Positions 22,407-37,539 of a stretch of DNA of 39,873 nucleotides are shown here, one piece after another. The stretch is taken from assembly GCA_947311255.1 (NCBI GenBank), contig CAMZKL010000007.1:1-39873 (forward strand), written 5' to 3'. The DNA is from an uncultured Chlorobiota bacterium (lineage in GTDB: Bacteria > Bacteroidota > Bacteroidia > Bacteroidales > JAADGE01). The notes below the pieces were generated by a model, which saw nothing but the letters and a program-made list of their open reading frames with translations, did no database searches and was not told the DNA's origin. The position numbers were made by a program, and so were the translations under genes. The stretch's first letter is position 1; each line of letters begins with the position of its first letter.

Positions 22407-23201
22407 ATGCAACAATATCAAAATTTATTAACTAGAGTTTTATTAGAAGGAGTAAAAAAGGAAGATCGTACAGGAACAGGTACAATAAGTGTGTTTGGAC
22501 ATCAAATGCGATTTAATTTGCAAGAAGGGTTTCCTTTAGTTACTACTAAAAAGTTACATTTAAAATCAATTATTCATGAACTACTTTGGTTTATTAAGGG
22601 ATCAACAAATATAAAATATTTGCAAGATAATGGAGTTAAAATATGGAATGAGTGGGCAGATATTAATGGCGAACTTGGTAGAATATATGGATATCAATGG
22701 CGTTCATGGACAGACGAAAATGGTGAGCATATTGACCAACTTACTCAAATTATTAATCAGCTAAAAGAAAATCCTAATTCTAGAAGACATATTGTTAGTG
22801 CATGGAATGTAGGTGATTTAGATAAAATGAACTTACCTCCATGCCACATTTTATTCCAATTTTATGTTGCAGATAATAAATTGTCTTGTCAGTTATATCA
22901 GCGAAGTGCTGATGTTTTTCTTGGTGTACCTTTTAATATTGCATCTTATGCTCTTTTAATAATGATGGTTGCACAAGAAACTGGATATGAACTTGGTGAT
23001 TTTATTCATACAATTGGAGATGCACATATATATTTAAACCACGTAGAACAAGTAAAACTTCAATTGTCAAGGGAACCTAAAAAACTTCCACAATTATTGC
23101 TAAATAAGGAAGTAAAAAAAGTTGTTGATTTTACATATAATGATTTTACATTAAAAAATTATATTTCACATCCACATATTAAAGGTTTAATATCAGTTTA
23201 G
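22407..23201 (+). CDS. thyA: Thymidylate synthase
   Basis: 264 residues, same length as the E. coli enzyme. It methylates dUMP to dTMP using methylenetetrahydrofolate, producing dihydrofolate. Catalytic C146 sits in [16 protein letters not shown] (21-26), [10 protein letters not shown] and [17 protein letters not shown] are also present. folA follows after 2 bases, so the dihydrofolate produced is recycled by the next enzyme of the same operon. Confidence 0.98.
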
Positions 23202-23203
23202 TT

Positions 23204-23698
23204 ATGACAATATCTATAATAGTAGCAATTTCAGAAAACAATGTAATTGGAAAAAATAATGATTTAATATGGCATATTTCAGCGGATTTAAAAAGATTTA
23301 AGAAATTAACATCCGGACATTCAATTATTATGGGAAGAAAAACATATGAATCCTTACCTTTTAAGCCTTTGCCAAAACGTAAAAACATAATTTTATCTTT
23401 TAAAGATATAAAATTTGAAGGAGCTTTTGTTGTTAACAATATAGGTGATGCTATAAAATTATGCGAAGGAGAAGATGAGATTTTTATTTGTGGGGGAGCT
23501 GAAATTTATAAAAAATTTATACCCTTAGCTGACAAATTATATATTACAAAAGTTCATAAAAAATTTGAAGGGGACACTTTTTTTCCCAAGATAAATTATA
23601 ATGAATGGAAATTGTTTGAAAGCTCAAAAAGATTTTATGATAAGAACTCAGATTTAGATTATACTTTTTTAGATTATACAAAAAAAGAATTAGAATAA
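23204..23698 (+). CDS. folA: Dihydrofolate reductase
   Basis: 164 residues. It reduces dihydrofolate with NADPH. Motifs: NNVIGKNNDLIWHISADLKRFK with the catalytic D28, then IIMGRKTYESLP, and FICGGAEIY (the GG-nucleotide loop). Downstream of its stop a short AT-rich 172-base gap separates it from the convergent CBS gene; I see no clear terminator there. Confidence 0.97.
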   Translation: MTISIIVAISENNVIGKNNDLIWHISADLKRFKKLTSGHSIIMGRKTYESLPFKPLPKRKNIILSFKDIKFEGAFVVNNIGDAIKLCEGEDEIFICGGAEIYKKFIPLADKLYITKVHKKFEGDTFFPKINYNEWKLFESSKRFYDKNSDLDYTFLDYTKKELE

Positions 23699-23870: not shown

Positions 23871-24344
23871 CTATTTTTTAAAATGACTACTAAAATCGTG
23901 AATTCCAATCGGATTTTTAATGTGTTCTCTTAACATATGACTTTCATTTTCGTAGCTGTCCAACATCATTTTCAGAATATCTTCAACACTAAGCATTCCA
24001 GCAATCTCATTGTTTTCAATTATTGGAATATGTCGTATTCTTCTGTATAACATCACATTCATTAATTCTTTTGCAGTATCGTTCATATCTCCAATCAAAA
24101 TGTTATCTACATTTGTCATTAAATTATTAACTGTTTGCTTTTCTAATGCTATACCGCTTTTATAACATTTGTATAAAACATCTCTTTCAGAAAGGATTCC
24201 GGCAACATTGCCTTTTTTGTCTAAAACCATAACTGCTCCCACTTTATTTTCATCCATTATTTTAACAGCTTCAAAAGCACTTGAATCTGTTGCTACCGTA
24301 AATAAAGTTTTTCCTCTTTGTTTTAAAATATCTGTAATTTTCAT
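23871..24344 (-). CDS. Protein with two CBS domains
   Basis: 157 residues made almost wholly of a Bateman pair: CBS1 about 5-68 (TDSSAFEAVKIMDENKVGAV, GILSERDVL) and CBS2 about 75-138 (MNVMLYRRIRHIPIIEN, GMLSVEDIL). CBS pairs bind adenosyl nucleotides or NAD(P)H and regulate partners. It starts 23 bases after the DHOD-like gene, so it is the last gene of the Mbx operon and might report cell energy or redox state to it; no partner is shown by sequence. Confidence 0.85.
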   Translation of the reverse strand: MKITDILKQRGKTLFTVATDSSAFEAVKIMDENKVGAVMVLDKKGNVAGILSERDVLYKCYKSGIALEKQTVNNLMTNVDNILIGDMNDTAKELMNVMLYRRIRHIPIIENNEIAGMLSVEDILKMMLDSYENESHMLREHIKNPIGIHDFSSHFKK

Positions 24345-24367
24345 GTGTCTATTTTTAGTTTTAAATA

Positions 24368-25351
24368 TTAATGATGATCAGAATAATACTTCATAAATTG
24401 TGAACGCTCAAAAACAATCGGATGCTTAATGTTTGAAGCATTTAATTTTCCGGTTATTTCAGATAATGATGCATAATTTTTAGAATCCATCCAAGCATCC
24501 ATATCCCTCAACATTGTTCCGATATAATTTGTTGAATTTTTATATAGAGTTGATGCAATTTGAACTGTTTTTGCACCGACAAGAATATTCTTTAAAGCTG
24601 TTTCTCCGTTCTCAATTCCAGTTGTAGAAGAAATGTCGCAATTTACTTTCCCCGATAATATTCCGATCCATCTTAAATTATTACTGTTTTCTTCCGGAAC
24701 ACTATAAATTCTGTTTGAAGTTAAAGTTTCTGTTTCTAAATCAATATCTGGATTATAAAAACGATTAAACATAACCAAAGATGAAATTCCGGAATTAGAT
24801 AATTTGACTAAAGTATTTGCCATTCCGGAAAAATAAGAACTAATTTTAAGAGCAATCGGAATTTTTAAAATTGATGTTATCTTTTCAATCAAGTCAAAAT
24901 AAACAGCTTCAATTTCTTTGCCTGAGAGTTCTGCATCTGAAGGAAGAATAAACATATTTAGTTCGATGGCATCTGCTCCAGCGGATTCAATTTTTTTTGC
25001 AAAATCAACCCATTCACCTGCAGACATACAATTTATACTGGCAATAATCGGAATATCAACTGCTTTTTTAGATTCTTCAATTAATGTTAAATATTTATTA
25101 ACATTGTGTTCTTTTGTATAATAAGAAACATAATTTTCAGCATCTGTGTATGTATTAAACATATTATTAACACCCAATGAATCAATTTCCATTTGAATTT
25201 GTTCTTCAAATAAAGATTTCAAAACAATTGCGCCAATTCCGTCATCTGCCAATGTTTTAACTTTTTCAAGAGTATCTGTTAATCCTGAACTTGCTGCAAT
25301 CAAAGGGTTTTTTAATTTTAACCCCATATATGTTGTGCTTAAATCAGCCAT
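24368..25351 (-). CDS. Dihydroorotate dehydrogenase-like FMN protein
   Basis: 327 residues, beta/alpha-barrel of the DHOD family: MGLKLKNPLIAASSGLTDTLEKV at the N-terminus, IIASINCMSAGEWV, ADAIELNMF, PIALKISSYFSG, and a C-terminal VGAKTVQIASTLYKNST. The usual catalytic segment around the second Asn (SVNTP) of true DHOD is not evident (SINCM... and LVMFNRFYNPD instead), so pyrimidine synthesis is unlikely. It starts 3 bases after the NuoI/GltD fusion gene and belongs to the Mbx operon. In analogy to Nfn- or dihydropyrimidine-type flavoproteins it may be an accessory electron carrier; that is inference. Confidence 0.82.
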   Translation of the reverse strand: MADLSTTYMGLKLKNPLIAASSGLTDTLEKVKTLADDGIGAIVLKSLFEEQIQMEIDSLGVNNMFNTYTDAENYVSYYTKEHNVNKYLTLIEESKKAVDIPIIASINCMSAGEWVDFAKKIESAGADAIELNMFILPSDAELSGKEIEAVYFDLIEKITSILKIPIALKISSYFSGMANTLVKLSNSGISSLVMFNRFYNPDIDLETETLTSNRIYSVPEENSNNLRWIGILSGKVNCDISSTTGIENGETALKNILVGAKTVQIASTLYKNSTNYIGTMLRDMDAWMDSKNYASLSEITGKLNASNIKHPIVFERSQFMKYYSDHH

Positions 25352-25354
25352 GTT

Positions 25355-27151
25355 TTATTTGTTTTTTAAAAAATTATCGATTCCGTAAGCAGCTTTGTGT
25401 CCGTTTGCAATTCCGTGAATAACATCCGGTCCTTGAATAATATCACCGCCTACAAATAACCATTTTGCATCTGATTGGATGTTTTCGTCAACCGTTATTC
25501 TTCCTCTCGGTCCGAATTTTAACTCGGCTTTAATATCTTCGGTTATATAATTAATATCCATTCCTTGTCCGATAGATTCAACAACCATATCAGCTTCAAA
25601 GAAGTTTTTATTGTCTTCATCAAATTTCGGATTGAATCGACCTTCTGCATCAAAGATAGACAAGCATTTTACAACATGCAACCCTTTGATTTTTCCGTCC
25701 TTAATTTCAATTTCTTTCGGTCCCCAACCTGCATTAACAATTGCTTTTTCTTCCCTTGCTTCCAGAACCTCTTCAACATCTGCCGGTAAGTTTTCTTCAC
25801 TTTCAAGTGCGGTTGCAATCATCTGTACTCTTCCGTATTTTTGATTTTGTAAACGAGCCAATGAACGTGTAATATCCATTGCAACATTTCCGCCGCCAAT
25901 TACAACTATCTTCTCTGCAACATGTATTTCTTTACCTTCTGTTATTTTATTTAATAATTCTATTGCTTGATAAACATTTTCGTGGTCAGTTCCTGGTATT
26001 CCGGTACTTCTGCCAAGATGTAAACCGGTTCCGGCAAATACCGCATCGTATTTATCTCTTAATTCGGACAATGTAATATCTTTACCGATTCTTGTATTGT
26101 ATTTAATATCAACACCAAGAGAAAGAATGTAATCAATATCTTTATCTATTTGGTTGTAAGGCAATCGATATTCCGGAATTCCGTAACGCATCATTCCGCC
26201 GGCTTGTGCAAATTGTTCAAAAATTGTTACTTTATAACCTAAAAGCGATAAATAGTGTGCTGCAGATAATCCTGCAGGACCTGAACCTATAACAGCAACT
26301 GTTTTTCCGTTATTTTCAATACCGTCTGTTCCTAAAATACGCTTATAATCAGCAGATTCTACTTGGTCGGCAATGTATCGTTTTAGCCATCTTATTGATA
26401 ATGGTTCTCCGTTATGTCCGACAGAACAAACCGTTTCACATTTATGTGTACAAATACGACCGCAAATTTCCGGTAAGGGGTTTGTTTCATACAATACTTT
26501 TAATCCGTATTCCATGTCATCTTCCCGAACAGCCTTGATATATTCAGGTATTCCCATATTTGCCGGACAAGTTGCAATACAAATACCGCATTCTACACAA
26601 CGATCGGCTTCTAATTGAGCTTGTTCTTTTGAATATCCTTTTATCATTTCAATGAAAGAATGGTCACGCTCTTCGGGGTGAAGTTCTTCCATTGTTTGAC
26701 GTTTCTGTCCGTAAAATTCGTAATTAGGTGTTGGTTTCTTCCAGCCCAATTCATTATTATCCCATTCTTTATTTTCAGCTCCGGGTACAAACCTGAATTC
26801 TTCCGGATCTTCTGCAACCCAAGTATATTCATTCGATAAAGTTAAAGAGCCGGTCGTACAAACATCTACACAAAGTGCACACCAACAGCACCTTCCGTAA
26901 TCCACCATCGGTCTTAATCCACTATCTCCGTCTTTTGTATCATAACCTTTAACTGCAACTAAATCAATTGCTTCGTTTTCACAAATTTCTTCGCATGAAC
27001 CACAACCGATACATGTTTTTAATTCGTTTTTATGAAAACCTCTGTAACGTTCTGCACCGGGTCTGTCATTTAAAGGGTCTTTAACCGTTACAGGTTCCCT
27101 GAAAACTTTTTTCCAAGCGGTAAATGGAGTTAATATATCTTTTATTGCCAT
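25355..27151 (-). CDS. NuoI/MbxN-like 2[4Fe-4S] ferredoxin fused to GltD/NfnB-type NAD(P)H:acceptor flavoprotein
   Basis: 598 residues. Residues 1-125 are a NuoI-like module: cluster 1 C47-C50-C53-C57, cluster 2 C88/C91/C94-C98 (RCCWCALCVDVC) followed by GSLTLSNEYTW as in NuoI. Residues about 145-598 are GltD-like: Fe-S ligands C185-C188-C191-C195 and C230-C234-C238-C242, FAD-binding VIGSGPAGL (288-295), NAD(P)-binding VIGGGNVAMD (417-426), and C-terminal FVGGDIIQGP. Genuine glutamate synthase is unlikely because no gltB is nearby. Its place right after the NuoD-like gene is where Mbx clusters carry mbxN, so the protein probably docks on the Mbx-type complex and passes electrons between NAD(P)H and its clusters. 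Confidence 0.88.
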   Translation of the reverse strand: MAIKDILTPFTAWKKVFREPVTVKDPLNDRPGAERYRGFHKNELKTCIGCGSCEEICENEAIDLVAVKGYDTKDGDSGLRPMVDYGRCCWCALCVDVCTTGSLTLSNEYTWVAEDPEEFRFVPGAENKEWDNNELGWKKPTPNYEFYGQKRQTMEELHPEERDHSFIEMIKGYSKEQAQLEADRCVECGICIATCPANMGIPEYIKAVREDDMEYGLKVLYETNPLPEICGRICTHKCETVCSVGHNGEPLSIRWLKRYIADQVESADYKRILGTDGIENNGKTVAVIGSGPAGLSAAHYLSLLGYKVTIFEQFAQAGGMMRYGIPEYRLPYNQIDKDIDYILSLGVDIKYNTRIGKDITLSELRDKYDAVFAGTGLHLGRSTGIPGTDHENVYQAIELLNKITEGKEIHVAEKIVVIGGGNVAMDITRSLARLQNQKYGRVQMIATALESEENLPADVEEVLEAREEKAIVNAGWGPKEIEIKDGKIKGLHVVKCLSIFDAEGRFNPKFDEDNKNFFEADMVVESIGQGMDINYITEDIKAELKFGPRGRITVDENIQSDAKWLFVGGDIIQGPDVIHGIANGHKAAYGIDNFLKNK

Positions 27152-27214
27152 CTTTTTTAAATTATAAATTTTGAATTATAAGTTATGAATGTCTAATAAA
27201 CAAAACTTAATACT

Positions 27215-28411
27215 CTATCGTTCTATTTCCGGCGGACAAGTTTGTAATGAAACCATAATTGAGTGTACATCTGCAATATTTGCATTAATCAACAATTTTT
27301 CCAATAAAACAACTGCATGTGTATAACTCGGACCTCTTAAATTAATTCTTCTTGGTTTTGTACTGCCGTCGGAAACCGTATAAAACCCATATTCACCTCT
27401 TGATGATTCTGATCTTACATAAGTTTCTCCCGCAGGAATTTTCCAATGTAAAACGTTAGGTGTTTGAGCTTTGATGTCTCCTTTTTTTGGCATTTTTGCC
27501 ATTATTTGTCGAATTAAATCCAGTGTTAAGACCAATTCTTTTTTACGTATCATTGAACGAGCAAAAATATCGGAATCTGTTTCATGTGTTATGTCAAAAT
27601 CTAATTTATCATATACCAAATACGGATAATCTTTTCTGACATCACGTTTAAATCCGGCAGCTCTTGCATTAGGTCCGACAATTCCGTATTTATTAACCCA
27701 AGAGGGTTTGATATAACCGACTCCTTTTGTTCTTTTCTTAAAAACGATATTGTTAAACATCAAATTCTCAATATTCTTAACAAATTCGTCAATTTTACCA
27801 AGCACCTCTTCCATTCTTTTTTTAAATCCGTCAGGAAGTAATCCGCGAACACCTCCGGGAATAATATACATGTGGTAAACACGACCACCGGTTAGTTCTT
27901 CAAACAGGTCAAGAACCAAATCTCTTAAATACACACCCCATTGAACTCCGATACCGAGCGATAATGTACCTGCTTGTCCGGGAACAGTTCTTAAGAGTGA
28001 TTGTAAACGAGCCATTTCTAAAACCAATGTTCTTAACCATTCTGCCATTTCAGGAACTTCAATTCCAGAAAGTTCTTCGGCTGATTTAGCTAATAAATAT
28101 TCATTATAATCAGGTTCGGCAACGCACATTCTGATACAAGTGGGAAAACATTGTATCCAAAGTCGTCTTTCCATCAATTTTTCAAAACCTCTGTGCAGAT
28201 AACCGACATGTGTTTTTGCGTCAACAATTTCATCTCCGCTCAGAGTTAACTCAATAGCCATGTTTCCTGTAACTCCGGGATGATTAGGACCATGCCAAAG
28301 TTTAACAAATTTTCCGGAAGATAAATCAATATCTAATTTACCGTTTTTCTTTTTGGCAGGATATTTACTCCTGTCCGGTTGCCGGTTGAATATATTTTTT
28401 TGTTCTTTCAT
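27215..28411 (-). CDS. NuoD / hydrogenase large subunit homologue of an Mbx-type complex (MbxL-like)
   Basis: 398 residues. The 49-kDa core: HPGVTGNMAIELTLSGDEI, THVGYLHRGFEKLMERR, and the end MVSLQTCPPEIER. Nickel-iron hydrogenases need CxxC at both ends; here the first is QCFPTC (C88-xxx-C92, then C96) and the last Cys pair is absent (only C392). CxxxC with loss of the second motif is, as I recall, the Mbx/Mbs signature. The NuoC gene overlaps it by 4 bases (ATGA). It should carry the active or quinone/sulfur-site core at the membrane's cytoplasmic face. Not a hydrogenase by these residues; true complex I is disfavoured by the operon. Confidence 0.86.
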   Translation of the reverse strand: MKEQKNIFNRQPDRSKYPAKKKNGKLDIDLSSGKFVKLWHGPNHPGVTGNMAIELTLSGDEIVDAKTHVGYLHRGFEKLMERRLWIQCFPTCIRMCVAEPDYNEYLLAKSAEELSGIEVPEMAEWLRTLVLEMARLQSLLRTVPGQAGTLSLGIGVQWGVYLRDLVLDLFEELTGGRVYHMYIIPGGVRGLLPDGFKKRMEEVLGKIDEFVKNIENLMFNNIVFKKRTKGVGYIKPSWVNKYGIVGPNARAAGFKRDVRKDYPYLVYDKLDFDITHETDSDIFARSMIRKKELVLTLDLIRQIMAKMPKKGDIKAQTPNVLHWKIPAGETYVRSESSRGEYGFYTVSDGSTKPRRINLRGPSYTHAVVLLEKLLINANIADVHSIMVSLQTCPPEIER

Positions 28412-28965
28412 TTATGCAAGTTTTTTTTCATGTATTCTGCGGGATCATTTGTTTTTCGACCCGGTCTTGGGAAAAAGGTTTCTTCTGCATATACTTTTGT
28501 ATCAAAATCACGTCTGTATGGCGGTATATCATTCCAACCTTCTAATATAAAATTTTCATCAACTCGAGGACTGCCGGGAAAGTCAATTCCGAACATTTCT
28601 TTTAATTCTCGTTGATATGTTGCAATTTGTTTCCAAAGTTTATGGGCTGTTTCCATTGTTGCTTCTTCTCTTGAAATCATTGTTCTAACGGCAATATCAA
28701 GTTTTTGCTTCGGATTATTTAAGATGTAAGTTAATTGAAACTTTCCGTCTTCAATCCAATCAACCGCTGTTAATAAAACAAAATGTTTAAAACCCAAATT
28801 AGTTTTCATGTGAGTTATAAGAGCAATTGTTTTTTGTTTTTCGCAAGTTACAAAAGTCATATTATCTCTTCTGTGAACAATATCTGTAATTTCAAATCTG
28901 CTTTTTATATCATCAATAATTGACGATTTAATATTGACAATTGATGATTTATTCTTTTTTTCCAT
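28408..28965 (-). CDS. NuoC-like 30-kDa subunit (MbxK-like)
   Basis: 185 residues. The complex I 30-kDa family is recognised by REEATMETAHKLWKQIATYQRELKEMFGIDFPGSP and LEGWNDIPPYRRDF. It stabilises the hydrophilic arm together with the NuoB- and NuoD-like subunits. Start at 28965; the first 30 residues are lysine/isoleucine-rich and not conserved. Its stop overlaps the start of the NuoD-like gene. Confidence 0.92.
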   Translation of the reverse strand: MEKKNKSSIVNIKSSIIDDIKSRFEITDIVHRRDNMTFVTCEKQKTIALITHMKTNLGFKHFVLLTAVDWIEDGKFQLTYILNNPKQKLDIAVRTMISREEATMETAHKLWKQIATYQRELKEMFGIDFPGSPRVDENFILEGWNDIPPYRRDFDTKVYAEETFFPRPGRKTNDPAEYMKKNLHK

Positions 28966-29085
28966 TATTTTTTTTTATTTTTCTTTACAGACTTATTTAC
29001 TTTTGCCCATTTTTAAATTTGTTAAAAAGAATTTTATTTTTTATTTTTCAATAATAAATAGACAATCAAAAATAATCAATTGGAC

Positions 29086-29769
29086 TTACCAATTATAATC
29101 AGGCATATTCCAATCGTTAATAATCTTTTTTTGATTCGCTTTATACCAATCAAATTTTTCGGCATATTCATTTGCTCCTTCTCCCCTTCCGGCTTTTATG
29201 CGTTCTTTTAATTTCATAAACCCTGCAAGCAAAGCTTCCGGACGCGGCATACAGCCTGCAACATAAACATCAACAGGAATAAAGTGGTCTAATCGATTGA
29301 TTGTATTGTAACTGTCCCAATACATTCCGCCGTTAATAGTACAAGACCCCAAAGCCAAAACATATTTAGGTCCTTGCATTTGTTCATAAGACCTGATTAC
29401 GCGCTTCAATGTTTTAACAGCCAAATACCCTGAAATTATAAATACATTTGATTGTCTGGGAGTCGGTCGCATTGCAACACCAAATCTGAAAGCATCAAAT
29501 CTGGGAGTCATCAAAGGTGGTATTTCAATACTTCCGCATCCTGTACCAAAGCCCAATACCCAAAGGGATTCTGCTCTTGACCAGTTTAAAAATTTCTCAA
29601 CTATTTTATTTGTTTTTGGTTTTTTTATTTCAGGTCGATCGTCTAAAAAATAATCATTTAAAGGATCTACTTTTATAATTGAACCGTCAGGAGCTTTTAC
29701 TTCTCTGATTTTATTTTCTTCGTGAAGAAATTTTTCGTGATTTTTATTTTCGTTTGTCATTTTCTTCAA
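29086..29769 (-). CDS. NuoB-like small subunit (MbxJ-like) with only three cysteines
   Basis: 227 residues. The first 55 residues are a charged extension. Conserved features: WSRAESLW, GFGTGCGSIEI, TPRFDAFRFG, PRQSNVFIISG, ALGSCTINGGMY, VAGCMPRPEALL. In complex I the proximal cluster (N2) is held by CC at the first site plus two more cysteines. Here only C78, C143 and C173 exist in the whole protein; the second of the tandem pair is Gly79. It may use a non-cysteine ligand. It starts 3 bases after the NuoH-like gene. Confidence 0.9.
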   Translation of the reverse strand: MKKMTNENKNHEKFLHEENKIREVKAPDGSIIKVDPLNDYFLDDRPEIKKPKTNKIVEKFLNWSRAESLWVLGFGTGCGSIEIPPLMTPRFDAFRFGVAMRPTPRQSNVFIISGYLAVKTLKRVIRSYEQMQGPKYVLALGSCTINGGMYWDSYNTINRLDHFIPVDVYVAGCMPRPEALLAGFMKLKERIKAGRGEGANEYAEKFDWYKANQKKIINDWNMPDYNW

Positions 29770-29772
29770 ATC

Positions 29773-30678
29773 TTACATAAAAATAATAATTGCAATTACA
29801 CCGAGTAACAACGGTATTTTTAAGAACCATTGTACGGATTGTTCTATTCTGAATCTTGGAAAAACGATACCCACAAAAACTGACCAGAAGTAGATAAAGA
29901 ATGATTTTACTATAAGTTCAAACCAGTTTCCTGCTCCGCCAAAGAATAAGTTCATAAAAAGAACGGCTTCAATAACATGAAGAATTGCCGCATTTGTTCT
30001 TAACACTCCCAAGAAACTTGAATGGTATTCTGTTGGAGGTCCTATCGGAATTTCGTTCGGTGCTTTTACTAAATTAAACGGTGAATGACCAAATGCACCA
30101 AGCAATGATAACATGGCTGCAACTGTTGCAAAAGGATTTGTGAAAAGAGTCCAGTGCAAAATTCCGCCTTGTTGTGCTGCAACAATTTCTGATATTGAAA
30201 GTGTGTTGTATTGTATTGCAATAGAAATTACAGCTAATGTCATTGGGACTTCAATGGTTGTAAATTGAGATAAACCCCTGCTTATACCAATCGCTGAATG
30301 GGGATGTCCTCCTTCCCCTGCTCCAAGTGCCATTCCTAACATTCCAAAGAATTGGAAATACATAATAAGCACTAAATCGCCGGCAAAAGAAAAGTTACTG
30401 AAATGTTGTGATGCAAAAATTAAAGGCATAAATAAAAAGATTCCTACACCTCCTGAAACCCTGAATATAGGGCCGAGATAAAACATTACTCCGTGAGTAA
30501 TAGAATCTCTTAAGGAATATAATTTAATAATATTAATCCAAGGCTGATAAAACGGTATTCCGTATCGTCCGGCAACGCGTGCACCTATTTTTCTCATTGT
30601 AGCACTCATCAATAATCCCCAATTAAGGATGATGAAAAGACCAAGAAAAACATATAATAATTTTATAACAATATCCAT
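29773..30678 (-). CDS. NuoH-like membrane subunit (MbxM-like)
   Basis: 301 residues with about eight membrane helices. NuoH/respiratory-chain NADH dehydrogenase subunit 1 motifs: RVAGRYGIPFYQPWINIIKL, the loop GAGEGGHPHSAIGISRGLSQ, FNLVKAPNEIPIGPPTEYHS and FRIEQSVQWF. It links the hydrophilic arm to the proton/sodium-translocating membrane arm. It is followed by the NuoB gene after 3 bases. The gap before it (30679-30819) holds a palindromic repeat. Confidence 0.93.
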   Translation of the reverse strand: MDIVIKLLYVFLGLFIILNWGLLMSATMRKIGARVAGRYGIPFYQPWINIIKLYSLRDSITHGVMFYLGPIFRVSGGVGIFLFMPLIFASQHFSNFSFAGDLVLIMYFQFFGMLGMALGAGEGGHPHSAIGISRGLSQFTTIEVPMTLAVISIAIQYNTLSISEIVAAQQGGILHWTLFTNPFATVAAMLSLLGAFGHSPFNLVKAPNEIPIGPPTEYHSSFLGVLRTNAAILHVIEAVLFMNLFFGGAGNWFELIVKSFFIYFWSVFVGIVFPRFRIEQSVQWFLKIPLLLGVIAIIIFM

Positions 30679-30704
30679 AACTACTTTGTTTCTATATTAG
30701 TTTT

Positions 30705-30800
30705 ACCACAAGGGACACAAAAGTTTGTACAATGCACACTATGTACCGAAATATTTAATCTTTGCGTTCTTTGTAAATTCATTGTGAACTTTGTGCTTGT
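30705..30800. repeat. Imperfect inverted repeat in the gap between antiporter and NuoH genes
   Basis: The left arm (ACCACAAGGGACACAAAAG, 30704-30722) is roughly the complement of the right arm (TTTGTAAATTCATTGTGAACTTTGTG, about 30770-30795). Both arms are built of ACAAAG/CACAA words. It looks like a palindromic intergenic element inside the operon. Confidence 0.5.
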
Positions 30801-30819
30801 TTTTTATTATTTAATTTCT

Positions 30820-33800
30820 TTAAAATACAATTAAATATATGATTACTAGATACATAATAATATGTAATGCGTATGTTTGTCCGTTTCCTGTATAAACTCT
30901 TCTGACAAAACCTGCTGTTCCTTTTACTGTTTCTGACATATAATTCCAGAATTGTGTAATGAAAGGAGCAACCAATAATCCCAATGCTTTATTATATCCT
31001 GCATACATATTATGTGCTACATGTGTTGTTTCCGGTCTTTCCGGTCTTTCGCCTGAATACACAATATTAAACTGTTTCACTTTTTTAGATTTGCGATTGA
31101 ATAAAGCCAACCATGCAAATAAAATTGTAAACATTATGCCTATAATTATCATAACTCTGTAACCGCTCCAATATCCTAATGTGGTGCTTGCAGTTGTATC
31201 ATTCCAATTAAGAGTTTCTGACGGAAAGTATCCGGCAATTGCATCACCGATCGGTTGTAAAATAAGATCCGGTCTTGCAGAGAAAATCATTATACCGATA
31301 ATCAAGATATAAATAGGAATAATAAACCAAATTGAGATTTCTTTTACATTTCTATGCTCGTCTTTTAATTGCCCCAAGAAAACAGCATATATTAATCGGA
31401 AACAATATAAGAATGCAATAATTCCGGCAAAGAACACAATTGCCCCTTGGAAATACCAACCTTTAAGAATAACCGCATTATAGAATAACCATTTACCGGC
31501 AAAACCTGATAATGGCGGCACTCCTGACAGAGTAATAATTCCGATTAAAACCGCAATAAAAGCAAGAGGCATACGTTTAATTAATCCGCCCATTTCGTAC
31601 ATTTTATGTGTTTTTACACGAAGTACAACAGCCCCGATTGCCAAGAACAACACAGCTTTAAATAAAAAGTGATTAATTGAATATGTAATACCGGTTAACC
31701 ATCCGAGATGTGTCATAATTGCAAATGCAAATAAGATGTATCCTAATTGTCCGATACTTGAATATGCTAATAATTTCTTTGCGTCTTCTTGAAATGATGC
31801 AGCAAGATTTCCGACAAGAGCTGTAATTGCTCCTAACCAACCCAAAATATATAAAATAGGATTTGTTCCGGCACTTTCGGCTCCCATAGCAATAAATAAA
31901 ATGATTAATCCGAATACACCAGCTTTCAATAAAATGGCAGAAACCATCGGTGAAACATCAGATTCTGCTTCGGCATGGGCTCCGGGTAACCAAATATGTA
32001 ATCCGACAGTTGCTGTTTTGGTCATAAATCCGATTGCCAGCATTAAATAAATAAGATTTGCATGCGATGTAATCATACTTAAAGCATCTAATGAAATACC
32101 GGCTTGTGCATTTGTCATTGCAAACCCGATAAGCATTAAATATGCTCCGGCAACAGAAAACAACATATAGCTGTATCCGTGAGGCATAGAGCGTTTTCCT
32201 CTGATAATAAGAATGTATGAACCGAGAGTCATTAATTCCCAAGCAAAAAAGAACTGCAACATGTTTTCAGCTTGAATGATGCCACCTAAACCAGCAAACA
32301 TAATTAAAGCCGCAGGATAAAAACCTTGACGTTTTCCTTTTGCATAGAAGCCGGCAATTAATGTTAAAATACCACCGCCTATAAATATGGTACCGAATAT
32401 AAATCGTAATAAGTCTTTTTCATATAATTCCGGTAAGAATGTGTAACCATAATATGCCATTCCTGCAATTGCAATTATGTTTTTTACGAAAGCCGGCAAG
32501 AAATCTACAAAGAATAAAGCTGCAATAAAAAATAAAGGAAGATAGTTAATAATATCGCCGCCTTCAACAAAAGTTGAACTAAAAAATCCAACAACATAGG
32601 TTAATATTCCGACAATTGCTACGGGTATTATTTTATGAACAGGAACTTTAATTGTTTTCTTTTCGGAAACCTCACCTTTTATAACATAACCTAACCATTT
32701 AAACAAATATATACCTTCAAAGAAAGATCCGAGAAGTATTGCTGCCACCCAAATCATATTACTTTTTGCGGCAAGAACCATAATCAATTCCCATTTTCCG
32801 AAGAATGAAGGAAAAGGAGGAAATCCGATTAAAGTAAAAACAAATGTTCCGAAAAGAACCAATAAAAACGGTTTTTTACGCAATGCAGACCATTTTTTGA
32901 TATTGTCTTTTTTAACAATTCCTGCCAACCAGAATAATCCGGCTTTTGCAAGAAAATGTGCAACAACTATTGTAAATGCAATAAATTGAAATTTATCTCC
33001 GAGAACAGGACCGAAACCGATAATCATAACCAATAAGCCGATTTGACCTACGGAAGAATAGCCTAATAAACGTTGTGCATTTTTTTGTTTAATACCTAAT
33101 AAGTTAGACCCTACAAAAGTAATAATTCCGAGATTTGCCAATAAATCATAACTGTCAAACGAACCGATTGCTGCAATTTTATAAAGTACAAAAAGTACGG
33201 CTGTCCCGGATGCAGAAGAAATAATTGCTGAAAGCCCGGGTTTCGCACTTTGGTATACATCTAATGCCCATCCGTTTGCAGGAAAAGGTTTTAGTTCTAA
33301 AAGAATTGCTCCCAGAATTAAGAATACTGCAATTGCACCGCCTTTTGAGGCAGTCATATTTGCATTAATGAAATCTTGAATATTCAAAGAACCTGTGAAG
33401 TAATAAGCAAAAATAATTCCGAGTAATAATAAACCGGCAATAATTCCGGTTGCAACCATATATTTAAAGCCGGAAGAAACGGCATGTTTCTTTTTATGCA
33501 ATACAATTAAACCGGCAGTTGCAATGCTTTGAACTTCAAGAAATACAAATAAGTTAAACATATCTTGTGTTAACACAATAACATTTAAACCCATGAGTAA
33601 AATGATGTAAACAGCAATTGCATTTTTACCTTGTTTTACCAGTGTTTTAAACAAATAAATACCGCTTAACAGTCCGACAAAATTTATCATTAAGCTAATC
33701 ACAGCCTCTTGATAACCCATTTGTAAATTAACGGAATAAGGCGGTTTAAATCCTGCCGTAAAAATTTGAATTGTTTCTTGCCCTCCGGAATAAAAAGCAT

Positions 33801-33945
33801 ACACCCATTGAGCAGAAATAAAGGTTAACATACCAACGGCTGCTAACATAATAAATGCACTTATCTTTTGCGACAGTTTTCCTGTGAAACCCAAAGCAAA
33901 TGCAGTTCCCAGTGCTATTGTGATAATATGTATCGGTGAAATCAT
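30820..33945 (-). CDS. Fusion of two MrpD/NuoN-type antiporter subunits (MbxH-MbxH'-like)
   Basis: 1041 residues, twice the size of one antiporter subunit. The N-terminal half (1-480) is one Proton_antipo_M unit with the TM5 glutamate E137 (NLFVFLEVQS) and TM7 lysine K219 (LLELKPFPANGW). The C-terminal half (485-1041) is a second unit with E570 (FFFAWELMTLGSY), K643 and K674 (HIWLPGAHAEAESDVSP between them). Mbx/Mbs complexes are known to have two such subunits, H and H'; here they are one chain. The ion (Na+ or H+) cannot be told. 141 bases separate it from the NuoH gene, 202 from mrpC. Confidence 0.88.
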   Translation of the reverse strand: MISPIHIITIALGTAFALGFTGKLSQKISAFIMLAAVGMLTFISAQWVYAFYSGGQETIQIFTAGFKPPYSVNLQMGYQEAVISLMINFVGLLSGIYLFKTLVKQGKNAIAVYIILLMGLNVIVLTQDMFNLFVFLEVQSIATAGLIVLHKKKHAVSSGFKYMVATGIIAGLLLLGIIFAYYFTGSLNIQDFINANMTASKGGAIAVFLILGAILLELKPFPANGWALDVYQSAKPGLSAIISSASGTAVLFVLYKIAAIGSFDSYDLLANLGIITFVGSNLLGIKQKNAQRLLGYSSVGQIGLLVMIIGFGPVLGDKFQFIAFTIVVAHFLAKAGLFWLAGIVKKDNIKKWSALRKKPFLLVLFGTFVFTLIGFPPFPSFFGKWELIMVLAAKSNMIWVAAILLGSFFEGIYLFKWLGYVIKGEVSEKKTIKVPVHKIIPVAIVGILTYVVGFFSSTFVEGGDIINYLPLFFIAALFFVDFLPAFVKNIIAIAGMAYYGYTFLPELYEKDLLRFIFGTIFIGGGILTLIAGFYAKGKRQGFYPAALIMFAGLGGIIQAENMLQFFFAWELMTLGSYILIIRGKRSMPHGYSYMLFSVAGAYLMLIGFAMTNAQAGISLDALSMITSHANLIYLMLAIGFMTKTATVGLHIWLPGAHAEAESDVSPMVSAILLKAGVFGLIILFIAMGAESAGTNPILYILGWLGAITALVGNLAASFQEDAKKLLAYSSIGQLGYILFAFAIMTHLGWLTGITYSINHFLFKAVLFLAIGAVVLRVKTHKMYEMGGLIKRMPLAFIAVLIGIITLSGVPPLSGFAGKWLFYNAVILKGWYFQGAIVFFAGIIAFLYCFRLIYAVFLGQLKDEHRNVKEISIWFIIPIYILIIGIMIFSARPDLILQPIGDAIAGYFPSETLNWNDTTASTTLGYWSGYRVMIIIGIMFTILFAWLALFNRKSKKVKQFNIVYSGERPERPETTHVAHNMYAGYNKALGLLVAPFITQFWNYMSETVKGTAGFVRRVYTGNGQTYALHIIMYLVIIYLIVF

Positions 33946-34040
33946 ATTTATTTATGTTAATATCTTTATTATCTAATTTTTTGTAATCTTACCTTTTTAA
34001 TAAACTTACACTTTAAAATATTATATTGTTTCAATGTTCT

Positions 34041-34090
34041 ATTGTTACATTGTTAAAAAAAACAATGCAACAATTTAGCAATGTAACAAT
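34041..34090. repeat. Perfect inverted repeat with nested alternative hairpin
   Basis: ATTGTTACATTG (34041-34052) and CAATGTAACAAT (34079-34090) are a perfect 12-bp pair. Inside, CATTGTT and AACAATG (34048-34067) form an alternative hairpin. It lies within the operon between mrpC and the fused antiporter gene and is not followed by a T-run on the coding strand. Confidence 0.6.
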
Positions 34091-34147
34091 TACCATTTCA
34101 GATCTTTAAAATTCTGAATTTCTAATGTCCCTTTTTGTTTGTATAAT

Positions 34148-34459
34148 TTAATTACATAAGCTAACATTAGCCGTTACACCCAATCCGATTACGATTGCCG
34201 TAAGAACTAATGCCTGCGGAACCGGGTCAACAATTTTATCAGCAACATCTTTAATTCCGACGGCATCATCTAAAATCGGAGCTGTTTTTCCTCTTACATA
34301 TGCAATACTTACCATAATAACATGAAGTCCGGTATCAAAAATTGTAAATCCGATAATCATTTTTATGATATTTTTTTGCGTAAGAATTCCCCAAATTCCG
34401 ATAACGACTAATAAGAATCCTGTGATAATTGATATATATTCTAAACTGAAATATTTCAT
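34148..34459 (-). CDS. mrpC: MrpC/MnhC (NuoK-like) antiporter subunit
   Basis: 103 residues, three membrane helices. The NuoK-like pattern is visible (GFLLVVIGIWGILTQKNIIKMIIGF, then DPVPQALVLTAIVIGLGV, the last being the MnhC signature). Part of the Mrp-type module of the Mbx-like complex (MbxG position). The last few residues (ANVSLCN) are atypical but the length is normal. Confidence 0.88.
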   Translation of the reverse strand: MKYFSLEYISIITGFLLVVIGIWGILTQKNIIKMIIGFTIFDTGLHVIMVSIAYVRGKTAPILDDAVGIKDVADKIVDPVPQALVLTAIVIGLGVTANVSLCN

Positions 34460-34480
34460 TGTGTTATTTTTTCTGTTTTA

Positions 34481-34530
34481 CCATTAAAAATTAAGGTTTA
34501 TTATCTTAATGTTCCTTAATACCTTAATGG
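34481..34530. repeat. Tandem ATTAAGG words and inverted repeat before mrpC
   Basis: ATTAAGGT (34490-34497) and ACCTTAAT (34521-34528) are inverted, flanked by CCATTAA/TTAATGG. On the minus strand ATTAAGG occurs in tandem (three near copies between 34505 and 34530). Confidence 0.5.
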
Positions 34531-34537
34531 TTTTATT

Positions 34538-35248
34538 TTATTTTTCTGCTTGAATTTCATTAAACGATCCTACAATTCCGGATAATTCTGCACCAACTTT
34601 TAAACCTATAAAAGAATAAATTATAGGTATTGCACCCGCACTTAAAATTTCTCCGAAAGTTCCGAGTTTTAAAATATGGTTATCTAAAAATCCGCCGGCT
34701 AAAACTATCCCCAATATTCCGATAACTACAAATGAAAAACCTGAAATTGATTCGACAAATGCCAAAACACCGTGTTTAACTTTTTGAACAGGGTTTGCAA
34801 TCATCATTAATACAAAACCGGTTGCTATAACCGCACCACCCTGAAAACCTCCGCCGGGAGTTAAATGTCCGTTGATAAAAATATACATCCCGAACATAAA
34901 AATTAGAGGCACTAATGCTTGTGATCCTGTTTTCAGAATTTCACTTGCTTCTCTTAATTTTTCAACACGTTTGCCGTTTTTTGAATCTTTTTTTGATAAT
35001 TTCAAAAAGAATCCGATAATTGCCGCCGTTAAAAATAATATAACAACTTCTCCGAGAGTATCAATACCTCTGTATGTAACCACAATTGAAGTAACTAAAT
35101 TTTGTGCACCAACTTCCTGTACACCGTTTTCTGCATAGTATTTTCCGAGATTTGATAATTCGTCATTCCCTTCATAAGAAATAAAAAGGCTTACAAAAAT
35201 CAATGAAAATGCAATCAGAATTGCCAGTATGAAACTATTTTTAAGCAT
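34538..35248 (-). CDS. mrpB: MbhE-like domain fused to MrpB/MnhB
   Basis: 236 residues. N-terminal part (1-80): TM helix then TSIVVTYRGIDTLGEVVILFLTAAI, the MbhE-type (MrpA C-terminal) domain. C-terminal part (105-236): LVPLIFMFGMYIFINGHLTPGGGFQGGAVIATGF, the MnhB signature. In Mbx clusters the E and F (MrpB-type) subunits are adjacent; here they are one chain. Its start overlaps the stop of the upstream DUF4040 gene by 8 bases, showing translational coupling. Confidence 0.88.
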   Translation of the reverse strand: MLKNSFILAILIAFSLIFVSLFISYEGNDELSNLGKYYAENGVQEVGAQNLVTSIVVTYRGIDTLGEVVILFLTAAIIGFFLKLSKKDSKNGKRVEKLREASEILKTGSQALVPLIFMFGMYIFINGHLTPGGGFQGGAVIATGFVLMMIANPVQKVKHGVLAFVESISGFSFVVIGILGIVLAGGFLDNHILKLGTFGEILSAGAIPIIYSFIGLKVGAELSGIVGSFNEIQAEK

Positions 35249-35486
35249 TGTTTTTTCGGATTTTATTCAGTACATAAAAAAATATGACGGTAGATAAACC
35301 ACTACCGATAGCTGCTTCTGTCATTGCTACATCCGGTGCAGCCAAAAGCAAGTATAAAACAGATGCAAACAAACTGACAACACCTGCCGCAATTATTGCA
35401 ACCTCTAATTTTTTGTTATGAATTGCCATTACAGCCATTATTAACATTACAATTGCCAGAACTATTGCTATAAGTATATATTCCAT
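35241..35486 (-). CDS. DUF4040 protein, MbxD/MrpA C-terminal-like subunit
   Basis: 81 residues with three membrane helices. LLLAAPDVAMTEAAIGSGLSTVIFFYVL is the hallmark of the DUF4040 (MbhD) domain, which corresponds to part of MrpA. Start 12 bases after mrpG, end overlapping the next gene by 8 bases. Confidence 0.87.
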   Translation of the reverse strand: MEYILIAIVLAIVMLIMAVMAIHNKKLEVAIIAAGVVSLFASVLYLLLAAPDVAMTEAAIGSGLSTVIFFYVLNKIRKNNA

Positions 35487-35497
35487 AATAAGTTCAA

Positions 35498-35890
35498 TTA
35501 ATTTTGTTTAGTTTCTTCTTTTTCGGAAGTTTCTGTAATGTTTGTTTGCTTCTTAACCGTAAGCACCGGTTTTTTGCTCATTTTATCAACAACCGAACGT
35601 TTTGATAAAGGAATGCCGATATAATGGGCGGCTCCTGCCAAAACATGTGATGATATCGGATTTGATACCAATACAAAAACGATTAACACCAGTATTTTAC
35701 CGTACCAATCTAAATGTATAATTCCTATTCCGACCAAAGTTAACATTGTTCCGAGCGTGGTTGCTTTTGTCCCGGTTTGAATTCTGTTATATACATCCGG
35801 CATCCTTACAAGCCCGAGTGCTCCGAGGAACAAAAATATTGCTCCGATTAATGTAATAACAGCTCCTATTATTTCTATAATTTCATTCAT
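35498..35890 (-). CDS. mrpG: MrpG/MnhG antiporter subunit
   Basis: 130 residues. Three membrane helices with GAIFLFLGALGLVRMPDVYNRIQ, GTKATTLGTML and SNPISSHVLAGAAHYIG, all family signatures. The C-terminal 25 residues are a hydrophilic tail. It begins 9 bases after the true end of mrpF. Confidence 0.92.
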   Translation of the reverse strand: MNEIIEIIGAVITLIGAIFLFLGALGLVRMPDVYNRIQTGTKATTLGTMLTLVGIGIIHLDWYGKILVLIVFVLVSNPISSHVLAGAAHYIGIPLSKRSVVDKMSKKPVLTVKKQTNITETSEKEETKQN

Positions 35891-35899
35891 AATAATTTT

Positions 35900-36162
35900 T
35901 TATAAACCTCGTTCAAAATAACGTGCAATAATTAATACGGCAATAAAACTTAATAAACCGTAAACCAGTGCAATGTCCATATATATATAACTCTGCCGGC
36001 AAAATGAGAAATTAATCCTATTAATGCTATTGAGCTTATTGTAAGAACATCCAAAGCAATAATTCTATCGACAGATGTATCTCCTTTAATAAACCGATAA
36101 AGTGTTAAAATAACAGCTAAACCGATAAATCCTAGTGCGATGTATAATATTAAATTAACCAT
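35900..36162 (-). CDS. mrpF: MrpF/MnhF antiporter subunit, frameshifted
   Basis: The frame from ATG 36162 stops at 35950 after 70 residues and ends in unrelated residues (IWTLHWFTVY). A shift at the (AT)5A tract 35979-35989 restores MDIALVYGLLSFIAVLIIARYF and a stop at 35900, giving 86 residues, the usual MrpF length with three helices. The tract holds one AT dinucleotide too many. Either a sequencing error, a slippage (phase-variable) site or an inactivating mutation. Start overlaps mrpE stop by 8 bases. N-terminal part (VDRIIALDVLT) is normal MrpF. Confidence 0.82.
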
Positions 36163-36649
36163 AAATTACCTCCAAATATTTTTCAAATTTTTTAACAATA
36201 TCTTTTGTTGCTCCTTCAATATCAGTATGTTCGACATTTATACAATGAATAAAAAATGTGTCCCCTTCCACTTTAACTGTTAATGTTCCCGGTGTTAATG
36301 TGATGGAATTAGCCAAAATCATTCTGCCTAATTTAGATTTCAATTTTGTTTCAACTTCAACTATACCCGGGTTAATAGGTAAAGAGGGAGAAACAACACG
36401 TCTTGCAACATCAAAATTTGATTTGATGAGTTCTCCCAAAGACACAAAAATATAGGTGAAAAAATACAAGATTCCTTTCGGACTAAAATTCATTTCAGAG
36501 AATATTTCACATTTCCCGCAAAAAACCAATGAGATAAAAAGTGAAAGCATTATTCCTATTCCTAGAGTTGTTAAATCATATTTACCGTTGAGCAAAAACC
36601 AAGTAGCCAAAAGCAAAAAGAAAGCAACTATTATATTTTTAATTTTCAT
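36155..36649 (-). CDS. mrpE: MrpE/MnhE antiporter subunit
   Basis: 164 residues from ATG 36649 (MKIKNIIVAFFLLLATWFLL); a longer frame to 36685 lacks support. Two membrane helices, ATWFLLNGKYDLTTL, then the conserved cytoplasmic part with ILANSITLTPGTLTV and FFIHCINVE. First gene of the Mbx operon. Its -7 box (36671-36678) leaves a leader of about 15 bases. Confidence 0.9.
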   Translation of the reverse strand: MKIKNIIVAFFLLLATWFLLNGKYDLTTLGIGIMLSLFISLVFCGKCEIFSEMNFSPKGILYFFTYIFVSLGELIKSNFDVARRVVSPSLPINPGIVEVETKLKSKLGRMILANSITLTPGTLTVKVEGDTFFIHCINVEHTDIEGATKDIVKKFEKYLEVIYG

Positions 36650-36670
36650 TTGTTTTTTTTTAATCGAGGG

Positions 36671-36678
36671 CAAACATA
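36671..36678 (-). promoter_or_regulatory. -7 box of the Mbx operon
   Basis: TATGTTTG on the minus strand, exact TAnnTTTG, 22 bases before the mrpE ATG. No TTG at 17-23 bases upstream, as expected for an activator-dependent promoter. Confidence 0.5.
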
Positions 36679-36721
36679 TTAACATATCTTAATACTCCTA
36701 TTATTCCAAAACATCTAACAA

Positions 36722-36855: not shown

Positions 36856-37539
36856 ATGTTTGAAAATCCTCAATGTGCAACTTGTTTATTCAAATCGTCA
36901 GCGGTAAAAACACTAGACGTTACTCAAATAGGTCAATTGGAGCAGAATTGTGCAATTGCGAGCCTAAAAAAAGGAGACATTATATTTAAGCAAGGTGTTT
37001 TTTCTTCAAATATTGTTTTTTTAAAAAAGGGTATTGTAAAACTTTTTGTTGAAGATGATTATAATGAACAAATATTGAAAATTGTAAAAGGTCCTACATA
37101 TTTAGGAATACCTACAACATTAGATGTGAAATTTAATCATTATTCTGCAAAAGCATTAGACGATGTTAATGCGTGCTTTGTGGAAATAAACACATTTAAA
37201 AGTTTTGTACATAATAATGGGAAATTTGCTTATGAAATTATTGTAGAATTATGTAAAAATGAAATAAACTTATTTAATAAATATATTAGTAGGTCACAAA
37301 AAAATGCGAGAGGAAGGATTGCTGATGCAATTTTGTTTTTGTATGAAGAAATTTTTAATGATAAAACATTTGTAATGCCATTAACTCGACAAGAATTAAG
37401 TGATTATGTTGATACTTCAAGAGAAAGTGTAAGTCGAATTCTTACGGAATTTACAAACGATAAAATTATTGAATTAAAAGGGCGTAAGATTAATATTATT
37501 GATTTTGACAAACTTAAATTGGTAAGTCAGACGGGTTAG
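36856..37539 (+). CDS. Crp/Fnr-family transcriptional regulator
   Basis: 227 residues. Cyclic-nucleotide-binding-type beta-roll (about 35-130) and a C-terminal winged helix-turn-helix (about 165-215; LTRQELSDYVDTSRESVSRILTEF, with the Fnr/Crp recognition helix E-SVSR). N-terminal C7xxC10, C32 and C107 recall Fnr ligands, but the spacing does not match E. coli Fnr, so a cluster is only possible. The cAMP-contact motif of Crp (GELxx...RSA) is missing, arguing against cAMP. It diverges from the Mbx operon, sharing a 206-base control region with it, and sits 3.4 kb before nqrA's end of the window; likely a redox regulator of these units. Confidence 0.88.
   Translation: MFENPQCATCLFKSSAVKTLDVTQIGQLEQNCAIASLKKGDIIFKQGVFSSNIVFLKKGIVKLFVEDDYNEQILKIVKGPTYLGIPTTLDVKFNHYSAKALDDVNACFVEINTFKSFVHNNGKFAYEIIVELCKNEINLFNKYISRSQKNARGRIADAILFLYEEIFNDKTFVMPLTRQELSDYVDTSRESVSRILTEFTNDKIIELKGRKINIIDFDKLKLVSQTG

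Follow-up and report, generated by a model that had tools for sequence, protein, structure and literature searches.

A predicted MBS/MBX-type respiratory gene cluster with a fused antiporter subunit in an uncultured Bacteroidales bacterium

The 39,873-nucleotide stretch analysed here (the window) is contig CAMZKL010000007.1 of assembly GCA_947311255.1, which is one of the 75 contigs (C7) of a 2.8-Mb genome from an uncultured bacterium of the Bacteroidales. There is a cluster of 12 open reading frames (ORFs) on its minus strand, from position 25355 to 36685, and sequence comparisons identify this cluster as an MBS/MBX-type complex that is neither complex I nor a hydrogenase. We lean towards the view that it is a respiratory complex that transfers electrons from NADH (or ferredoxin) to a sulfane and pumps ions in the process. 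The most useful new elements appear to be the fusion of the two antiporter-like subunits H and H' into a single protein, a switch in the coenzyme loop of the electron-input arm, and the coexistence of two types of the complex.

Placement in the MBS/MBX family

The subunits A, B, C, D, E, G, H, H', M, J, K, L and N of the MBS/MBX complexes are all represented in this one cluster (Table 1 lists them from 36685 down to 25355), and the gene order is also preserved in many other genomes. Profile matches are far above chance, as exemplified by L with a NuoD model (E=1.8e-110) and J with a NuoB model (E=4.5e-60). These matches bear out the gene identities, the order and the single orientation proposed in a first-pass annotation made from the sequence alone, and the overlaps that it reported (28408-28411, 35241-35248 and 36155-36162) are indeed present. 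That annotation counted 13 genes where there are 12 ORFs. Its span of 23871-36649 also takes in two co-directional genes that it did not mention; in addition, the start of mrpE is at 36685 when the longest ORF is taken.

Searches against PDB sequences consistently lead to the MBS of Pyrococcus furiosus. The L protein scores 308 bits with 6u8y_L, compared with 194 for Thermus complex I and 125 for MBH, and the J protein scores 220 bits with 6u8y_J, compared with 136 for the next chain and 100 for MBH. For the NuoI part of N, the top NuoI-type chain is 6u8y_N (81; next 42), such that the best scores of all three within the complex I superfamily belong to MBS. The GltD part of N scores higher with Nfn-type chains, as expected. 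The fused antiporter is best matched by 6u8y_X (MBS H', 204 bits, stretch 514-1036) and then by 6u8y_H (MBS H, 155), which is the sole chain among the 60 listed whose best stretch is located in the N half of the protein.

The phylogenetic test that had been suggested at the outset gave the same outcome. In the L tree, which has 78 rows, P. furiosus MbsL and the MBS-type rows are together separate from complex I and from the hydrogenase protein HycE (99/96). In the J tree (91 rows, without a hydrogenase row), the MBS-type rows are separate from complex I (100/100). Complex I is represented by Escherichia coli NuoCD and NuoB and by the complex I of the same genome as the window. P. furiosus is the sole MBS reference in both trees, which include no Thermotoga Mbx sequence; HycE forms a very long branch in the L tree, and the tree program flagged the long branches of P. 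furiosus. The earlier proposal of an Mbx/Mbs-type complex that is neither hydrogenase nor complex I is thus in agreement with scores, motifs and trees.

The ligands of the proximal [4Fe-4S] cluster of MBS are C28, C93 and C123 of MbsJ, with C25 being too distant, and the proposed catalytic site of the P. furiosus enzyme is the cluster iron that lacks a Cys (PMC7684303). In the J protein of the window, C78, C143 and C173 align with these three residues and are predicted to bind the cluster in the same manner. All three are kept in 90 of 90 bacterial MBS-type rows, which include four identical pairs. The position of MbsJ C25 is Gly in the window and is either Gly (89) or Ala (1) among these rows, and the tandem Cys after C78 is absent from all of them. 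Complex I likewise has no Cys at the C25 position, but has the tandem Cys instead, as is observed for E. coli NuoB and for the complex I of the same genome; HycG has CxxC at this site. Therefore, no fourth Cys ligand is available in J.

Only one Cys of each [NiFe] motif pair is found in the L protein of the window, rather than the four Ni-binding cysteines of a hydrogenase. C96 aligns with MbsL C85, and C392, within the sequence TCPPEIER, aligns with MbsL C385. The first-pass annotation was therefore right that complete [NiFe] motifs are lacking and wrong that there is no Cys at the end of the protein, and the first Cys equivalent to that of MBS is C96. Among 80 bacterial MBS-type rows, the first position has Cys in 70, Ala in 7, Ser in 2 and Thr in 1, whereas the second has Cys in 49 and Tyr in 27 and is uncovered in 4. 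This variation agrees with the dispensability of C85 and C385 in MBS, wherein both the C25A and the C85A/C385A enzymes are still active (PMC7684303). The positions that contact the quinone head group in complex I (Nqo4 H38 and Y87) correspond to T48 and V97 in the window, and each of the 80 rows has Thr and Val there, whereas E. coli NuoCD and the complex I of the same genome have H and Y.

The fused antiporter, the electron-input arm and the two types

Both antiporter parts are located on one ORF in 48 of the 92 loci examined, although two contigs are counted twice (L018/L036 and L020/L060). The window is among them, with a single ORF of 1041 amino acids (aa) where the first-pass annotation had seen two antiporter genes. 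Separate and complete H and H' ORFs of ~490-506 and 590-621 aa are found in 25 loci (one contig counted twice), and the other 19 are cut by contig ends, broken (L102) or complex I (L025). One locus that is cut by a contig end (L040) still has both parts on one ORF. Given that the same ORF recurs in so many loci, a frameshift or misassembly was rejected as the cause of the fusion. The loci with the fusion come from many bacterial phyla.

In the J tree, one change separates 48 fused rows, including the window, from 24 unfused rows (98/95; 100% of 200 bootstrap trees), with the 19 rows in neither group left out of the count. In the L tree, all rows labelled as fused are within one 49-row clade (99/91) that comprises 40 labelled and 9 unlabelled rows; nine changes are counted for this tree because nine cut-contig rows carry no label. 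As judged from these trees, the fusion has one supported origin.

The AlphaFold model of the fused protein (pLDDT 88.8, pTM 0.90, 38 sequences) has the MBS H' chain 6u8y_X as its top fold match (TM-score normalised by target 0.80). Two stretches that are seen in eight unfused bacterial loci are missing from the fused protein, namely the tail at the C-terminus of H and the part of H' that forms the hairpin between transmembrane segments 2 and 3. Each half has a set of Glu and Lys residues (E137, K219, K256 and K334; E570, K643, K674 and K763) that are invariant or at least 90% conserved, and we take these to be the positions usually assigned to proton pumping. No description of a bacterial MBS with a fused H-H' was recognised among the literature matches listed, in a search that had supplements and subscription journals outside its reach. 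The fusion is put forward as a probable new element.

In the N subunit, a NuoI domain is joined to an NfnL/GltD-like flavoprotein that carries FAD and nucleotide motifs. By motif, N has Cys residues for four [4Fe-4S] sites, and the nine cysteines in its NuoI part and the eight in its GltD part are kept in 61 of 61 aligned fusion proteins. The eight in the arm are shared with NfnB (4ylf_B). The top Foldseek match of the AlphaFold model (pLDDT 86.1) is the large subunit of P. furiosus NfnI (5jca_L, E=2e-45). This fusion had been listed as a novelty, which it is not, because it is already found in Thermotoga maritima, the only one of 14 control genomes above the PRK13984 cut-off (a match scored at the level of the whole genome). 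There is also a third form of the complex in Chromatiaceae loci L104, L105 and L107, wherein H and H' are separate and N has no GltD arm.

A YRR motif holds the NADP phosphate in NfnB and separates NADP(H)-using from NAD(H)-using DsrL proteins, with the DsrL-1 enzymes that lack YRR using NAD(H) (PMC7596348). This motif is present in 31 of the 61 fusion proteins and is replaced by an NAD-type loop in the other 30, which include the window (L020 and L060 among them are one contig). The 28 such proteins in the L tree, from which L020 and L063 are absent, all belong to one 35-row subclade (99/100) where no YRR protein was seen. We predict from the sequence that this change is a switch towards NAD(H), which is the more likely nucleotide of the window arm. 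The switch in this subclade would also be a new element.

Named genomes were scanned for the best 80 of at least 569 loci, which is not a census. Records with the fused form (type A) are named as Bacteroidales, Prolixibacter denitrificans, Thiothrix caldifontis, Sedimenticola, Thiosymbion and Sideroxyarcus, among others, and also as several Spirochaetes, Cloacimonadota, Neomarinimicrobiota, Calditrichia, Krumholzibacteriia and Aminicenantes. Some of these are metagenome-assembled genomes (MAGs) for which binning errors are possible. Thermotoga is not named among these best 80 loci. The novelty claimed for the lineage of the window is weaker than first thought, given that a putative Mrp-Mbx complex of a sulfur-oxidising Riftia symbiont (PMC11636981) and the Mbx of Thermotoga (PMC9431562) are in print.

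A phylum-wide draw gave a match to the fused antiporter (E<=1e-150) in the genome of the window alone among 395. Few genomes of its own order were listed in this draw, and therefore an even draw of 393 genomes from the order was used. There are J-like proteins (E<=1e-60) in 56 of these. By J identity and N-terminal extension alone, 36 genomes have type A, 29 have type B, in which H and H' are separate, and 9 have both. Co-occurrence is above that expected for independence (odds ratio 5.6, Fisher p=4e-4), although related genomes are not independent of each other. The genomes with both types suggest that A and B do different jobs, and a second, unfused type in the same order and sometimes in the same genome is regarded as another new element. 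Among the 60 nearest relatives, 8 (the window genome included) have a full-length fused match and one (G010) has a cut match; a larger tally, 43 of 60, is inflated by paralogs that include complex I subunits.

Neighbouring genes

Two genes follow N+GltD in the same direction, with gaps of 3 and 23 bases, and these encode a dihydroorotate dehydrogenase (DHOD)-like flavoprotein and a CBS-domain protein. A divergent gene for a CRP/FNR-type regulator is located 170 bases upstream of the operon. Among 86 other loci, 19 have the DHOD-like gene next to the operon, always on the operon's strand, and it is found downstream of type A (11 loci) or upstream of type B (8 loci). Its presence at opposite ends of the two types points to a functional link with the operon, and this recurrent pairing would likewise be new. 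The CBS-domain gene is downstream in 7 of the 86 loci, and the divergent regulator gene is upstream in 11. In ten type A loci other than those with DHOD, mostly proteobacterial, the downstream place is occupied by a ferritin- or rubrerythrin-like gene that is close after or overlaps N+GltD (L044, L045, L049, L051, L053, L055, L057, L059, L064 and L077). Pfam confirmed the ferritin family for both loci tested, and L045 was assigned by eye.

Table 1. Predicted genes of the cluster and genes linked to it, with positions in the window
Feature	Position	Strand	Evidence
mrpE / MbsA-like, 176 aa	36155..36685	-	Pfam MNHE E=6.7e-39
mrpF / MbsB-like, 70 aa	35950..36162	-	Pfam MrpF_PhaF E=1e-5
mrpG / MbsC-like, 130 aa	35498..35890	-	Pfam PhaG_MnhG_YufB E=2.3e-23
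MbsD-like, 81 aa	35241..35486	-	Pfam MbhD E=1.4e-19
MbsE-like (MbhE + MrpB), 236 aa	34538..35248	-	Pfam MnhB E=3.9e-23, MbhE E=6e-8
mrpC / MbsG-like, 103 aa, frame lost after residue 97	34148..34459	-	Pfam Oxidored_q2 E=6.1e-16
Fused antiporter H-H' (MbsH + MbsH'), 1041 aa	30820..33945	-	1-459 like NuoN-type models; 514-1036 like MbsH' 6u8y_X
MbsM / NuoH-like membrane anchor, 301 aa	29773..30678	-	Pfam NADHdh E=8.2e-41
MbsJ / NuoB-like, 227 aa, predicted three-cysteine proximal [4Fe-4S] site (C78, C143, C173)	29086..29769	-	best PDB match 6u8y_J
MbsK / NuoC-like, 185 aa	28408..28965	-	Pfam Complex1_30kDa E=1.3e-23
MbsL / NuoD-like, 398 aa	27215..28411	-	best PDB match 6u8y_L
MbsN (NuoI) + NfnL/GltD-like FAD-NAD(P) arm, 598 aa	25355..27151	-	PRK13984 E=1.3e-264, 879 bits, under cut-off 946
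DHOD-like flavoprotein, linked gene	24368..25351	-	PRK07565, 415 bits, cut-off 303
CBS-domain protein, linked gene	23871..24344	-	two CBS stretches
Divergent CRP/FNR-type regulator, possibly of the operon	36856..37539	+	Pfam HTH_Crp_2, cNMP_binding

Elsewhere in the window, there is a 2548-aa SprA_N motility/secretion protein (12692-20335), which is consistent with an origin in the Bacteroidota, and adjoining genes that resemble those for thymidylate synthase and dihydrofolate reductase (22407-23698; assigned by eye).

Candidate functions and their meaning

In the favoured scheme, NADH electrons would enter at the FAD of the NfnL/GltD-like arm on N, and reduced ferredoxin may also deliver electrons at the N clusters. 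The electrons would then pass via [4Fe-4S] clusters to the proximal cluster of J, which would break the S-S bonds in polysulfide or in a different sulfane. The energy would be transmitted through L and M to the two proton pumps present in the single H-H' protein, and part of it would be converted into sodium export by the Mrp module. We infer the sulfane acceptor, the NADH donor, the direction and the ion pumping by homology. Sulfane reduction is the most likely role in view of the chemistry of MBS, of mbxA in T. maritima, which is induced by sulfur (PMC9431562), and of the bacterial MBS of strain 3DAC, for which there are data on growth and expression (PMC10356935).

Several observations weigh against this proposal. 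No activity data were found for members of the fused clade, and no sulfur-metabolism gene was recognised beside the operon among flank clusters of at least three loci or in seven loci inspected by eye. The genome also carries RnfC (C1:5768-7054) and a complex I gene cluster (contig C73, locus L025), and therefore NADH and ferredoxin have other outlets. Two proton channels are a lot for a pump to drive with the small potential span from NADH to polysulfide. The mrpC gene carries a frameshift in this assembly and is out of frame after residue 97, whereas its C-terminus is intact in six of six compared relatives (~120 aa in total); this might be a sequencing error or a real mutation. Finally, the trees do not agree on the place of the archaeal enzyme, because the J tree puts MbsJ of P. 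furiosus, with its long branch, within the unfused bacterial rows (90/80), and the L tree puts MbsL outside every bacterial row.

The same genes can be given other functions. A fused arm that serves as the electron exit would make the complex an ion-pumping ferredoxin:NAD+ oxidoreductase for which sulfur is not the physiological acceptor. The covalent joining of an NfnL-like arm to the ferredoxin-type subunit N fits such an enzyme, and the Mbx of P. furiosus has been described in this way (PMC6349859). However, the conserved three-Cys site of J would then have no job, and the same reaction is carried out by Rnf, for which RnfC is encoded in this genome and in 323 of the 393 genomes of the order. 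These points cause us to regard this function as rather unlikely. The same distribution of RnfC leaves the idea that the complex is a stand-in for Rnf without support. An Nfn-type bifurcating enzyme was also rejected, since the NfnL-like arm stands alone and there is no NfnS-like protein among the scanned operon products.

Perhaps the complex instead runs in reverse, with the oxidation of a sulfane or persulfide driving NAD+ reduction at the expense of the ion gradient. This would be most plausible in the sulfur-oxidising proteobacterial relatives, as there are type A loci in records of Thiothrix, Sedimenticola, Thiosymbion and Sideroxyarcus. In addition, NAD(H) is the nucleotide predicted from the loop change, and the paper on the Riftia symbiont groups its MBX with complexes whose function or direction is unknown (PMC11636981). 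The genome of the window, however, is of the Bacteroidales type, where evidence of sulfur oxidation was neither sought nor met, and MBS itself operates reductively (PMC7684303). We consider reverse operation unlikely. An elaboration of the favoured scheme that we judge quite improbable is that the NfnL-like FAD of the fused clade confurcates electrons from NADH and reduced ferredoxin onto the sulfane, with the DHOD-like neighbour (Bacteroidota) or the ferritin-like neighbour (mostly Proteobacteria) docking on the arm and the H-H' fusion fixing both pumps as one unit. If true, such confurcation would give the pump a useful driving force.

Motifs, scores and trees all lead us to reject the complex I and hydrogenase readings. 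An NADH dehydrogenase that resembles complex I and reduces quinone would belong to the same superfamily; L and J are matched by complex I models, and one NuoD model (PRK06075) and two NuoB models even score above their cut-offs. The quinone His and Tyr and the tandem Cys of J are nevertheless absent, and the trees split the cluster off from complex I, which makes this function very improbable. The Mrp-linked organisation recalls a group 4 [NiFe] hydrogenase (Mbh), and there are Mrp-linked clusters that carry a group 4g hydrogenase annotation (PMC8542988). That reading has a negligible chance of being correct and is already refuted by the sequence, since only one Cys per motif pair is kept, the MBH scores are far under those of MBS, and no match to PF00374 at E<=0.01 is found in this genome.

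The genus Candidatus Stygibacter has been assigned a [NiFe] hydrogenase of group 4g that is linked to Mrp (PMC8542988). In the Candidatus Stygibacter frigidus MAG (L067), an MBS-type complex is encoded and PF00374 has no match at E<=0.01, in a search of six genomes of which two gave matches. The assignment is possibly a misannotation, but a table of that paper lists the MAG with a value of 58%, which is taken to be its completeness.

We thus return to an MBS-type sulfane reductase as the preferred function. The cluster shares with P. furiosus MBS (PDB 6U8Y) all subunit types, the Mrp module, the three-Cys proximal site, the C85/C385 equivalents and the lack of quinone or complete [NiFe] residues, and differs from it by the H-H' fusion with its missing H tail and H' hairpin stretch, by the NfnL-like arm on N and by the Gly at the position of MbsJ C25. 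The MBX of T. maritima is likewise bacterial, and the genome of this species has a match above the cut-off of the NuoI+GltD fusion family PRK13984. The type B complexes of Bacteroidales (e.g. L022, L023 and L089) have the same operon content and N+GltD fusion, but H (~498 aa) and H' (~617 aa) are separate, the YRR loop is kept, J lacks the ~50-aa N-terminal extension seen in type A J proteins, and the DHOD-like gene, where present, is upstream rather than downstream. With NfnL/NfnB of the electron-bifurcating transhydrogenase, the arm shares its fold and eight FeS cysteines, but the operon lacks an NfnS-like gene and YRR is replaced in the window clade. Respiratory complex I has the superfamily, NuoB/C/D/H/I and the antiporter-like subunits in common with the cluster, which has an Mrp module and is devoid of the quinone residues, the J tandem Cys and the NuoEFG genes.

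MBS is regarded as an intermediate that links hydrogenase-type pumps with complex I, and to our knowledge its detailed biochemistry rests on one hyperthermophilic archaeon. Mrp-linked clusters such as the one described here can be mistaken for group 4 hydrogenases. The fused H-H' form would offer a simpler membrane arm for study. Moreover, a fused and apparently NAD(H)-linked MBS in groups such as Bacteroidota and sulfur-oxidising Proteobacteria would suggest that energy-saving sulfur chemistry extends far beyond hot vents.

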